From Nitrospinota bacterium (GTDB lineage: Bacteria; Nitrospinota_A; UBA7883; JACRGQ01): 64,000 nt of DNA. Positions 5,338 through 19,580 of this stretch are shown one piece after another. The notes beneath the pieces were generated by a model that had not been told where the DNA came from, searched no databases, and saw only the letters and a program-made list of their open reading frames with translations. Location: contig JACRGR010000026.1 in the NCBI GenBank assembly GCA_016212275.1, forward strand, positions 1 to 64,000. The letters run 5' to 3'. Every line of letters begins with the position of its first letter. Position 1 is the first letter of the stretch. The position numbers were made by a program, and so were the translations under genes.

Positions 5338-5741
5338 GCCGGGTGCCACCCGGTAGGGATGACCGCAAAGCTGAAACGCGGAGCGCAACTTTTCTCCCGG
5401 TTCCCTTTTTTTAATCGCAACACTCGCCATCCGTCGCACGAAAAAAAGTCGGGGGCGTGATGTCCGGCGTTTGTAATCAAAGGTCGCGGACACCGGGCAG
5501 GTTCCGGCTTGTCAGGCGCAATCCAGTCCAAAGCCTTTCCGCCCCTTCCTTTGCCCACCGGTCATTACTCCGCTGGACATAACTTATTGATAGCAAAGAA
5601 TATACCACCGCCCCCTAATATTAAGTTATTAATAAACAATGGCTTGCCATCAGGGGGATTTCTGATATATCCGCATTTTTCGTAGCGGATTCCTTAAATT
5701 AATCCCCCGCCTACCGCCATTTTGCATGTTAAGATTTTGGC
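5338..5741. other. Intergenic region without a convincing gene
   Basis: About 400 bases. It starts with a short perfect hairpin (CCGGGT-GCC-ACCCGG, 5339-5353) directly after the FmdB-like stop. The rest has an A-rich run (5444-5450) and AT-rich sequence from 5580 on that probably contains the promoter of the NYN gene. Possible reading frames on the minus strand lack start signals. I compared it by eye with common riboswitches and saw no match. Confidence 0.5.
5730..5735 (+). promoter_or_regulatory. -10 element of the NYN gene (leaderless configuration)
   Basis: TGT-TAAGAT (extended -10, weak hexamer) followed by six bases and the GTG start at 5742, with no ribosome binding site. Confidence 0.4.
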
Positions 5742-15229: not shown

Positions 15230-15889
15230 CTACAGCCGCTGGCCGGAGGCCTTGAACCGGTGGTAGTGCGAGTACACTTTTCCCGCATAGCCGGTTCCCA
15301 CCTCGTCCCCATCTTCCAACTGCTGGTGCAATTGGCTGGGGCCCCGGTTATAGGCTTCCAGTGCGAGGTCCAAGCTCCCGAACCGCCGGATGAGTTTTGC
15401 GAGATATTTCGTTCCCAGGCTGATGTTCAGTTCGTTGTCGTCCATCAGCGCGTCCGCGTTTTCCACGGCCAGTTCCATGCCGGGGGCGATGAAGTCCGCC
15501 GTGTGCGGGCGCAGTTGCATCAGTCCCAGCGCCCCTTTCGGCGATACCGCGCGGCTGTTGAAACTGCTCTCCGCCTGGATGACCCCAAGTATAAGGTACG
15601 GGTCTATGCCGTACTGCCCGCTTTTCACCATTATCAACTCCGCCAGCAACGACGGGTTGTGGCGTAGCGAACCGCTGAACCGGGCGAGGATGGTGGAAAT
15701 CCGGGCGCGCGTTTCTATCCGATGGGCGTTTTGGGCGTTGTACTCCCGCTGAGCGGCGATCTTCGCCTCCAGTTCATCCCCCACCCGTTCAGATGCGGCA
15801 ATTTTCGCCTTGTAGTATTCCGCCGCCTGGAAGCAGGCTACACCCGCCACCAGCAAAGCCACAGAAAGGCATTTAGTTACCGGTCTCAT
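15230..15889 (-). CDS. Lytic transglycosylase (SLT domain)
   Basis: A 219-residue peptidoglycan lyase. An N-terminal hydrophobic segment (CLSVALLVAGVACFQAA) acts as signal or anchor, followed by a helical region and the SLT/goose-lysozyme-like domain from about residue 85. The catalytic Glu lies in IQAESSFNSRAVS, followed by KGALGLMQL and AYNRGPSQ, all diagnostic of family 1 lytic transglycosylases. It would cleave the glycan strand in the periplasm. ATG 15889 has AAAGGGG at good spacing and is preferred over the ATG at 15907. Could serve wall turnover or insertion of secretion or flagellar structures. Confidence 0.92.
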   Translation of the reverse strand: MRPVTKCLSVALLVAGVACFQAAEYYKAKIAASERVGDELEAKIAAQREYNAQNAHRIETRARISTILARFSGSLRHNPSLLAELIMVKSGQYGIDPYLILGVIQAESSFNSRAVSPKGALGLMQLRPHTADFIAPGMELAVENADALMDDNELNISLGTKYLAKLIRRFGSLDLALEAYNRGPSQLHQQLEDGDEVGTGYAGKVYSHYHRFKASGQRL

Positions 15890-16203
15890 ATTAGTACCCC
15901 TTTCCAAACTGCTATGTGCATTGATGCCTGATCAAGTTGTCTCAATCCAGTTGGCCTTGAGCGGCCAAATTTTCGCTATATATTCGTTATGCGTATTTTC
16001 TGTTTTTATTTAATGCAATTTTACCGATTAGGTATGGTTCTTGAGTTATATACTGGTGGCAAGAGGAATGTTAGAGGAGTTGGACCGAAAGGTCAAGCAT
16101 AAAAAATAGAGGTTATTTTAAAACGCATTATTTTACAAAAGGTTGCATTTTTTGATTTTGGTTTTGCCAGAGGGCGAAACGTCAGGGAGTTGACGCGAAC
16201 GTT
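15890..16203. other. AT-rich divergent intergenic region
   Basis: About 310 bases between the transglycosylase and the divergent repeat-protein gene. It is clearly AT-richer than its surroundings and likely holds both promoters. A short hairpin (TTGGCC-TTGAGC-GGCCAA, 15951-15968) followed by ATTTTC is visible. No coding potential is seen. Confidence 0.5.
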
Positions 16204-19148
16204 ATGGTTTTGACCTGTCCGAAGTGTTTGAGCCGGTACGAGGTGGATGCTTCGTCCATCCCGGAAGAGGGAAGTTACGCCCGTTGCGCCACCTGTGAAA
16301 ATATATTTTTTGTCAAAAAGAAGAAAAAATCGGCGAAAAAACCGGCCGTTCAGGAACTGGCCCCTGAGCCGGTAGTGGCAAAAGAACCGGCTGTTTCACC
16401 CCCCCCCCCCCTGAATCGCCGCCCCAAGCTGAAACTTTGCCCCCGGAGGAGCCAACCGTCCCTCCCGCGGCACTGCCGGAAACGCCTCCCCCCGCAATGG
16501 CGGAACAGGCGGCAATGCCTGCACGCCCGGCCACTTCCGCATCCTCCGCCCAATCAGATATTGATGCGTTGTTTGGAGGCGCGGCCAAGGTGGAAACGCC
16601 ACCCCCCGCACCTGCTCCCCAGCCGGTTCAGGTTGCCACAGAGGACAAGGGCGCATCGCCCGCCGATATTGACGCGATCTTCGCCGCCGCATCCGCGCCA
16701 AAGGCGGAACCGGCCAAACCGGAAGTCGCTTCGGCCTCAGACATAGACGCGATCTTCGCAAGCGCGCAGGTCGCCAAACAGGAGGCACCCCCTCCCCCGA
16801 TAGCTAAAGAAGCTGTCAAAGAAAAGGAATCGCTCAAGCCGGGCGACATAGAGGCCATTTTGGCAAATGTAAGCCCCGTGGTGGATAACAACGCGAAATC
16901 CGCCGCCCAAAACGATATTGACGCGCTTTTCAATAATGCGCCCAAAGCGGAGCCAAAACCGCAACCTGCACCCGTTAGCTCCACGGCAAGCGCAAGCGAT
17001 ATTGATGCCATCTTCGCCAGCGTCGCGGCACAAAAACCGGAACCGATCAAAACAGATGCACCCAAAAACGAGGCCGCCAGCGCGGCGGATATTGACGCGA
17101 TCTTCGCCGCCGCATCCGCTCCAAAGGCCGAACCGTCGAAGCCGGAGGTCGCCTCCGCAGATGACATTGACGCCATCTTCGCCGCCGCATCCGCGCCAAA
17201 GGCCGAACCGTCGAAGCCGGAGGTCGCCTCGGCCTCCGACATAGATGCGATCTTCGCCGCCGCATCCGCTCCAAAGGCCGAACCGGCAAAACCGGAGGTC
17301 GCATCGGCCTCCGACATAGATGCGATCTTCGCCGCCGCATCCGCTCCAAAGGCCGAACCGGCAAAACCGGACATCGCCTCGGCCTCCGACATAGATGCGA
17401 TCTTCGCCGCCGCATCCGCTCCAAAGGCCGAACCGGCAAAACCGGACATCGCCTCGGCCTCCGACATAGACGCGATCTTCGCCGCCGCATCCGCGCCAAA
17501 GGCCGAACCGGCCAAACCGGAGGTCGCATCGGCCTCCGACATAGACGCGATCTTCGCCGCCGCATCCGCGCCAAAGGCCGAACCGGCAAAAACCGAGGCC
17601 CCCGCAATGGCCTCGCAGGATGATATTGACTCGCTCTTTGGAAACGCGAAAGAAACCGCGGCCCCTGATGATATTGACGCGATCATGGCCGCGGCGCAAG
17701 CCCCCGCTCCGGCGGCCAGCGCCCTTCCGGCGGAACCGGCGGGTGGCACACAGGCGCTCTCCAACGACGATATAGACGCGATATTGGCGGGCGTTCCGGC
17801 CAGCAAGGAAGCCGAAATTCCCACGCCCACCACTGCGTCCGATGAAATTGTTTCGCAAGCGGATATGGACAGCCTTCTTTCCCAGGCCACACAACCGGCA
17901 AAAGAAGAAAAAGCCGCCGCCACCGGTGAGCCATACATTTCGCAAGACGACCTCGACTCGTTGTTAGGCGAAACAAAGGCCGCAATCGAGAAAAAGGAAC
18001 CGGCCATAAGCCAAGAAGATTTGGATACCCTTTTCACCGAAGCGCCCGCCGGGGCCGCGGCCCCCGCATCCGGCGCACAGAGCAACGTGATGGACCTGAT
18101 GGCGCAGGACGACGCCGAACTTGAATCGCTGTTCGCCAGCGAAGCCAGCGCTACCACCGGCGCCCCGAAAGCCGCGGCCCCCGCCGCCGCCACCCAAGCG
18201 CCCAAGGCCGAAGCGGAAGCCGGCATTGACACCTCGATGTTCGAGGGACTGGATAAAGAGGAAGCGGCCCCGATACCTGGCGAAGGCGTAAGCACAAGGA
18301 CTCAAGCGGGTGATACCGCACCCATACTCGAAGAAACGGGGGAGAAGAAGCCCGGAAAACTCGTCATTCTCGCGGCGTTCATTAAATCCAAACTGCCCAA
18401 GCGGAAGAAAAAAGAGTCGGCCCCCGCCGCCGAAGCCCCCGCGGAACCCGTGGCGGAAGCGCCCGGAGAAGAAACGGGACAAAAACCAAAAAAGAAATGG
18501 AAAAAAGCGCTGGCGCCCCTTGCGGCCATGTTGTTGGTAGCCGTCGGCGCGGGGATATATTTCTATCCCAAACTTGCGCCAAAGGCGGTCACAGTGGCAA
18601 AACATGAACCGGCCCCCGCCGCGAAGCCGGAAGAAACAAAACCGGTTGAAACGCCCAAAGCCGGAGAGCCAAAACCGGCGGAACAGGCAAAGATCGAGCC
18701 GACCCCGGTAGCGCCGGTGGAAACGGCAAAAGCCGCCGAACCGGCACCAGTACTTCCCGCACCTTTGCCGCCCGCGCCCGTTGCCCCGGTGGTCACGGCG
18801 CAGGTTGCGCCACCAACCCCGGCGGAGCCCGCCCTGCCTGAACAGAGAACTCTCAACCTCGGCATTATCGTGCCGGTGGACTTCAACACGCAGGTGGTGA
18901 AGGTGCTCTCCGCCGACGTGGAACTTCTGTTCACCGACGAAAAACAGAAGGCGATGGCGGAGAAAAAGCAGTTTCTGTACGAGGTGGCGATAGAGCAGGA
19001 GATAGAATTGTTCTTCAAGGACAAGTTCTACGAAGACACCCACTATGTGCAGGACAAGCTGATGGCCTACCTGTTCGACCGGTTCAAAAAGCGGGGCGAC
19101 ATGGAAAAGCTGTCCGGCGTGAACCTTCAGAACTTCTCCCTGAAGTAA
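16204..19148 (+). CDS. Zinc-ribbon membrane protein with ~20 FliM-like 'DIDAIF' motifs, split by a 13-C homopolymer frameshift
   Basis: The first 65 codons (ATG 16204) encode an MJ0042-type zinc ribbon (CPKC ... CATC), as found at the N-terminus of many deltaproteobacterial membrane proteins. At a run of 13 C (16399-16411) the frame is lost; one more C, or two fewer, restores a 900-residue frame that runs to 19148. That part carries about 19 clear copies of a [SAD]-D-I-D-A-[IL]-[FL] motif in Ala/Pro-rich linkers. Eight of these are near-identical 25-residue repeats, and later forms read SQDDIDSLF, SQADMDSLL and SQDDLDSLL. They resemble the FliM N-terminal CheY-binding peptide (LSQ-x-EIDALL). 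A basic stretch and one membrane helix (KALAPLAAMLLVAVGAGIYF) precede a Pro-rich linker and a C-terminal domain of about 100 residues, which may be FliL-like. Function unknown. Confidence 0.75.
17085..17612 (+). repeat. Seven tandem 75-bp coding repeats
   Basis: Units begin at 17088, 17163, 17238, 17313, 17388, 17463 and 17538 (first Asp codon of each DIDAIF), exactly 75 bases apart and differing by only a few bases. An eighth isolated unit begins at 16667. Each encodes DIDAIFAAASAPKAEP plus KPEVASAS-like linker. The near-identity points to recent expansion or gene conversion. Confidence 0.95.
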
Positions 19149-19223
19149 GCCGCTTCATTCCCCCGCCATACCCGAAGTTTATAGGAACGCTGGAATTTCT
19201 TTTGGTTTATGATACCGGCACGC

Positions 19224-19309
19224 GGAGGGGTGGCCGAGCGGTTTAAGGCGGCGGTCTTGAAAACCGTTGAACGAAAGTTCCGGGGGTTCGAATCCCTCCC
19301 CCTCCGCCA
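19224..19309 (+). tRNA. tRNA-Ser(TGA), CCA encoded
   Basis: Acceptor stem GGAGGGG with CCCTCC (7 bp), D-arm with GGTTTAAGGC, anticodon loop CTTGAAA giving TGA, long variable arm typical of type II tRNA, T-loop TTCGAATCC, and an encoded CCA at 19307-19309. Immediately downstream lies a repeat element that copies the 3' end of this gene. Confidence 0.96.
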
Positions 19310-19493
19310 TAACAAAAATCGCTCCCCGCGGGGGAGTATTTTTTATTACGGAGAGGGATTCGAAAGCGAGCTTCCGTACGCGAGCGATAAGCAAGCGTTA
19401 TCCGGCATGGATGCCGGATAAGGAAGCGAATCGGGCCTGATGGAGCCCGCGCGTGATGCGCGGGCGAGAGTAGGCGATCCCTCCCCCTCGGCC
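19310..19493 (+). repeat. tRNA-tail element A (structured, after tRNA-Ser)
   Basis: Non-coding element. In order: a terminator-like hairpin (19322-19336); an inverted copy of the tRNA-Ser T-arm (GGAGAGGGATTCGAA, 19350-19364); an internal fold with outer stem CTTCC/GGAAG (19371-19375, 19422-19426), a perfect 11-bp hairpin (19398-19421), a 21-nt conserved linker (19426-19446) and a 7-bp hairpin with GTGAT loop (19446-19464); then a direct copy of the tRNA 3' end (GATCCCTCCCCCTCGG, 19476-19491). The distance from tRNA 3' end to its copy is ~185 bases. It matches element C (63439-63625) in order, spacing and linker sequence, while the stems differ by compensatory changes. Confidence 0.7.
19322..19342 (+). 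terminator. tRNA-Ser terminator
   Basis: CTCCCC/GGGGAG stem (19322-19327, 19331-19336) followed by TATTTTTTA, right after the tRNA-Ser 3' end. Confidence 0.75.
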
Positions 19494-19580
19494 CGCCTCG
19501 CCTGCCCGATAAACGGGAACCGGCGCGGAAAGGCAAACTGCCAAAGAACCTGTCAAAAATGCCGGCTCGGATTTTATGAA

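Follow-up and report, generated by a model that had tools for sequence, protein, structure and literature searches.

A C13 tract divides the reading frame of a repeat-protein gene that appears to be linked to flagella in Nitrospinota

Reading frames at the locus

The window, the whole stretch of DNA that was analysed, comprises positions 1 to 64,000 of contig JACRGR010000026.1 from a Nitrospinota bacterium (assembly GCA_016212275.1), and the gene described here lies on its + strand. From an ATG at 16204, the upstream coding part (16204-16398) encodes a zinc ribbon of the MJ0042/Zn_ribbon_4 type, recognized by Pfam and NCBIfam profiles, followed by a linker rich in Lys, Pro and Ala. The linker runs into a homopolymer of 13 C residues, read as proline codons (C13; 16399-16411), whose first base is also the first base of codon 66 in the ATG-16204 frame. 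A second frame, referred to here as the repeat frame, is open from 16368 and extends from its first TTG over 16437-19148, a distance of 903 codons without a stop. With 13 C in the tract, translation is taken out of the repeat frame and into an Arg/Pro-rich tail (16412-16746) that ends at a stop, so that as written only a 180-residue stub is encoded (16204-16746). Both the tract and this truncated outcome had been claimed in a preliminary description of the DNA, and both are present in the sequence.

To follow the frame arithmetic, the C count alone was varied from 9 to 17. The resulting ORF was 980, 981 and 982 aa long at 11, 14 and 17 C, 179, 180 and 181 aa long at 10, 13 and 16 C, and 68, 69 and 70 aa long at 9, 12 and 15 C. 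Accordingly, the earlier proposals that 11 or 14 C would join the zinc-ribbon frame to the repeat frame, and that a full-length protein would be encoded at certain tract lengths alone, hold in this series, with 17 C as a further length that joins the frames. The locus therefore shares with contingency loci a long coding repeat whose length sets the frame.

The sequence and this length variation place the frame change at the tract, as does a composition model, based on the amino-acid composition of linkers from seven intact relatives, in which the most likely frame-switch point was 16399-16412, with 16393-16418 falling within 2 log units. In a codon-score scan with 150-base windows, the zinc-ribbon frame led to 16425 and the repeat frame led from 16501; in the scan windows 16351-16500 and 16426-16575 neither of these frames led, and antisense frames scored slightly higher.

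The zinc ribbon is formed by the first 36 residues and scores above the curated cut-offs of both profiles (Pfam PF13717, 40.7 bits with a cut-off of 30.3; NCBIfam TIGR02098, 32.6 bits with a cut-off of 20.9). The likeness to MJ0042/Zn_ribbon_4 proteins is confined to these N-terminal residues, and the domain is uninformative about the remaining protein. Of 22 other genomes in this class, 15 gave matches to the 65-aa N-terminal stretch, the match in G006, a genome without FliM, being a different zinc-ribbon protein. Pfam and NCBIfam hits to the repeat frame were weak, all of them below cut-off, and were taken as composition noise.

A single frame in the orthologues

To place these two frames in context, ten other genomes of the same family were searched. 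In all seven that gave a match, one ORF of 561-1591 codons covers the zinc ribbon together with the repeats and the C-terminal domain. Single ORFs were also found in G012 (same class), in G023 (same phylum) and on a Nitrospinota contig (L063), and these three together with the seven family members make up the ten intact orthologues referred to below. The orthologues of G013, G017, G018, G019, G020 and G021 were fragmentary or located at contig ends, and were left out of the count of intact and broken genes. Nine relatives are Nitrospinota, Nitrospinales or (two) Nitrospirae MAGs, several of them from groundwater.

The divergent neighbour at 15230-15907, probably a lytic transglycosylase as read by eye from its sequence, adjoins this gene at 10 of 15 loci compared (L044, a further locus, was left out of this comparison). 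The single ORF in 10 of 10 intact orthologues and the conserved neighbour both favour the earlier claim that the two frames are coding parts of one protein, and on this comparative evidence the zinc-ribbon and repeat frames are one broken gene, not two. The alternative, in which a small zinc-ribbon protein and a repeat protein with its own start are encoded by different genes, is compatible with the fact that each frame is open by itself, but it is barely credible in view of the undivided ORF in every intact orthologue, and by eye no convincing ribosome-binding site precedes the TTG at 16437 or the ATG at 16497.

It might also be supposed that function has been lost for good, leaving a pseudogene in this lineage, since the frame is broken in the record and the gene of G011, from another family of the same class, is also broken, within the repeats. 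However, the 903-codon frame has no stop, and the C-terminal domain retains 52-62% identity to its counterparts in the seven family members, making fixed loss of function very unlikely. The break in G011 (an assembly of 4 contigs) was the only other one seen; it lies in L043 (G011:C4) at ~5490-5500 and consists of seven bases absent between two near-identical repeats, which may be genuine or a repeat-collapse error.

Around the gene, no flagellar gene was recognized among the translations next to the locus, an Rfam search over 15850-19500 returned the downstream tRNA alone, and a promoter and terminator scan of the locus was uninformative.

Repeated motifs resembling the FliM N-terminus

A pattern search of the repeat frame detected 20 motifs of the type D-I-D-A-(I/L)-(F/L) (16557-18134), spaced 16-36 residues apart, compared with a maximum of 2 in 500 shuffles, the pattern having been written after the repeats were seen. 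The motif often follows S-Q-D, so that the repeats read SQDDIDA(I/L)(F/L). Within this motif array there is a 75-bp in-frame tandem array (17094-17598) of 6.7 copies with 93% matches. Nine intact orthologues carry 2 to 24 motifs each, with little or no excess over shuffles in G002 (2 motifs, shuffle maximum 1) and G023 (3 motifs, shuffle maximum 3), and the L063 gene has 0 pattern matches and one LSQEEMNKLL.

The repeated motif resembles the start of FliM, a region that binds CheY; PMC9126983 names 'EIDALL' as the motif, conserved in FliM and FliY, that binds CheY-P. In this genome FliM has the N-terminus MSQVLSQEEVDALL, and an N-terminus of that type is present in 17 of 18 FliM loci, the eighteenth, L125, having no pattern match. 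Judged by a post hoc pattern and by these FliM N-termini, the repeats thus contain an EIDALL-like motif of the FliM type. The arrangement differs from that in FliM, where one copy stands at the end of a C-ring protein, whereas here 20 copies, of putative CheY-binding function, stand in a likely membrane protein. No description of such a FliM-like motif array was found in the open literature searched, including searches with EIDALL/DDIDALL-type strings longer than 'EIDALL'.

Predicted membrane helix and FliL/SPFH-like fold

Downstream of the motifs, a likely membrane-spanning segment (18516-18570) was identified by eye from the translation, and an AlphaFold2 model predicts a FliL/SPFH-like fold for the C-terminal domain (18843-19145). 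The last 101 residues were modelled with a pLDDT of 88.7, and their best structural match was H. pylori FliL (7sgn_A; Z 11.3, rmsd 2.5 over 95 residues), with another FliL structure, 6ahq_A, at Z 10.5 and SPFH proteins from Z 9.8 down. FliL was ranked first by Foldseek as well, and on its predicted structure the domain has the FliL/SPFH fold.

Sequence comparisons gave a different outcome. When the FliL profile PF03748 was run against this genome at E up to 10, there were two matches, neither of them to this protein; Pfam at E up to 1 gave no FliL match for any of 10 C-terminal domain sequences; and hhalign against 15 FliL proteins of the phylum returned a probability of 0.1. Membership of FliL (PF03748) by sequence was rejected, the profile match being absent in all three tests, and since sequence methods find no relation to FliL, the claim made here is one of shared fold and not of membership. 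The protein is therefore like FliL in its predicted C-terminal fold and in the apparent single membrane helix before the domain (a helix seen by eye), and unlike FliL in having no sequence-level match and in its long N-terminal zinc ribbon and repeat region.

The C-terminal domain has no Pfam match. Two FliL-family genes exist separately in this genome, and besides the one adjacent to FliM there is a second, more distant FliL-family match (L130; G000:C7:6871-7146). Weaker second FliL-family matches were seen in many relatives too.

Co-occurrence with FliM

Across the 24 genomes of the phylum, the C-terminal domain was found in 16 and FliM in 18. FliM is present in all 16 domain-bearing genomes and in 2 of the 8 without the domain, leaving 6 genomes with neither (one-sided Fisher p = 2.1e-4, a value that ignores kinship). 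Four of the six FliM-less genomes belong to one family (f4), and G010 and G022, also among the six, are only 78% and 81% complete. In G020, which has FliM and no C-terminal match, the N-terminal part of the gene lies at a contig end, and G004, the other FliM genome without a C-terminal match, is an assembly in 410 contigs. A link to motility, as suggested in the preliminary description, gains support from this distribution (FliM in 16 of 16 genomes with the domain; the domain in 0 of 6 genomes without FliM), and on the pattern of gene presence the protein appears to be flagellum-linked.

The repeats and the fold raise the possibility that the protein is a membrane-anchored array of CheY-P-binding peptides, kept at the flagellar motor by its FliL-like domain. 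Taken alone, without any slippage switch, such an array is a tentative but reasonable suggestion, to which we would give about one chance in three. A more elaborate scheme, in which a membrane-anchored array of ~20 CheY-P-binding peptides with a FliL-like motor anchor would tune switching by soaking up or concentrating CheY-P, and in which slippage in the C run would toggle the array from one cell to another in this species, is quite unlikely in its entirety. The protein nevertheless seems to us to matter more than the tract, with its apparent combination of many FliM-like, putatively CheY-binding motifs and a predicted FliL-fold domain, and its apparent tendency to accompany flagella across the phylum, which makes a motor-tuning role directly testable.

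Long C and G runs in the window, the genome and its relatives

The frequency of long C/G runs expected by chance was estimated with Markov chains. A first-order chain fitted to the window predicts ~0.013 runs of at least 13 per window and ~0.43 per 2.19 Mb, and a third-order chain predicts ~0.02 per window and ~0.7 per genome; C13 is unusual locally and unsurprising as a genome's longest run. The genome, which is 83% complete, contains 4 C/G runs of at least 10 (lengths 13, 11, 10 and 10), compared with ~16 expected from the first-order and ~21 from the third-order chain. Only one of the four, C13 itself, is intragenic, the other three lying outside genes as judged by eye on open frames.

A long run at the position of the tract is missing from all ten intact orthologues. 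In the nine that were tabulated, runs do not exceed 9, a length reached by a C9 in G007 that lies some four fifths of the way into the gene, and the L063 gene has no runs of at least 8. Neither the orthologues nor several genes of this genome thus show a tract of the kind that selection would be expected to keep. Outside 16399-16436, CCC accounts for 37 of the 115 proline codons of the gene; at this usage the odds of four CCC in a row are ~1 in 93 per five-proline stretch, and a proline-rich linker can therefore yield the tract by accident.

Runs of at least 7 number 26 in the window, and 16 of these (all 7-8 long) lie within called open frames, the 10 others, including C13, lying outside. The 16 runs inside open frames give no sign of general indel noise, which counts against the explanation favoured below, but the test is a weak one: gene calling selects open frames in the first place, and the 16 runs all fall far short of 13. 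In the ten family relatives there are 16 C/G runs of at least 12, all of which were inspected by eye on open frames. Three are in coding-like frames (L135, L137 and L145), each open through the tract, the L141 run is in a coding-like frame at a contig end, and the remaining runs are intergenic-looking or unclear.

No copy with a different tract length was found from the same species or genus, the search including the 24 phylum genomes (of which only G000 is in the genus) and a scan of genome contigs, which gave nine relatives, eight of them outside this genus and the ninth being L063. An exact search of viral contigs with the left flank of the tract gave 0 matches. Two MutS-family matches are present in this genome, so that loss of mismatch repair is not indicated.

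Interpretation of the tract

One alternative, which takes up the earlier proposal of phase variation, is an evolved contingency locus, at which slipped-strand mispairing would turn the protein on at 11, 14 or 17 C and off at other lengths, generating variants in motility or chemotaxis. Such a switch is possible: tract length toggles the ORF, the tract comes within the first 7% of the gene, an early position at which a switch would work efficiently, the gene co-occurs with flagellar FliM, and phase variation is known among flagellum-linked proteins (PMC3711429). There is also a close precedent in the sortase-pilus genes bbr_0113 and bbr_1889 of Bifidobacterium breve, where a long G/C run likewise breaks one CDS into two ORFs, and where the reference carries G11 and the population ~60% G12 and ~37% G11, so that the recorded frame differs from that of many cells (PMC9187656). 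In contrast to the B. breve tracts, which recur in the genus and whose lengths were measured, the present tract occurs in one genome and is known from the record alone. An evolved switch is yet unsupported, because the tract is absent from all ten intact orthologues, C13 is by eye the sole intragenic run of at least 10, and the genome has fewer long C/G runs than expected from composition; the presence of MutS-family genes also speaks against it. We consider it unlikely, and of the phase-variation proposal we retain the part in which length decides the full frame and not the part in which the locus is a selected one. No paper on phase variation in Nitrospinota was found in the open literature searched, and mixed lengths in reads, if found, would constitute a case of it in this phylum.

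Some full-length protein could instead arise by recoding, if transcription slipped at the C run or ribosomes shifted there by -1. Such a homopolymer may be slippery, and a shift of -1 would restore the frame; PMC5009743 describes C_CCA_AAG, a -1 heptamer that starts with C_CC, as prone to shifting in E. coli. The utilized CCC sites shown in the available part of this review are, however, of the +1 type, for example CCC_UGA, and slippage runs are usually A or T according to PMC3711429. The site is also without conservation in the orthologues, and downstream RNA structure was rejected as a frameshift stimulator, since its folding is not unusual (z -0.77, with 42 of 200 shuffles folding as well). 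Recoding is accordingly highly improbable.

The explanation we favour, with a probability of roughly 0.65, is that a gene for a protein of ~980 residues has come, by accident, to contain a run of proline codons that is prone to slippage. One gene would produce a membrane protein consisting of a zinc ribbon, a Pro-rich linker, FliM-peptide-like repeats, a likely membrane helix and a FliL-fold domain, and in this genome record the linker would hold an incidental C13 made of proline codons. Because such a run is prone to slippage, the recorded 13 could be a true slip allele among the cells sampled, acting as an on/off toggle that is not under selection, or it could be short by one base through an undercount during amplification or assembly; PMC3711429 regards sequencing errors or indel mutations as the likely origin of frame-shifted genes that occur as singletons. 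The two frames, the switch point and the tract-free single ORFs of the orthologues are observed; this cause of the tract length, and the full protein as the normal state, are what we infer. A homopolymer frameshift is a familiar kind of event, and its use here is chiefly to caution that gene callers will cut this gene in two.

Long C runs were noted at other places in these assemblies. In the relatives, the L141 and L143 runs are at contig ends and the L140 run is followed by N, and some of these may be assembly products; G005 (L140-L143) has runs of up to 24 C and G021 has 106 overlapping 10-C matches, which are possible assembly or read artefacts. In the genome under study, the three other C runs of at least 10 are at L052 4149-4159, L053 4884-4893 and L054 7029-7038. 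The L052 and L054 runs lie shortly upstream of open frames, and by eye the L054 frame resembles a LuxR-type regulator.
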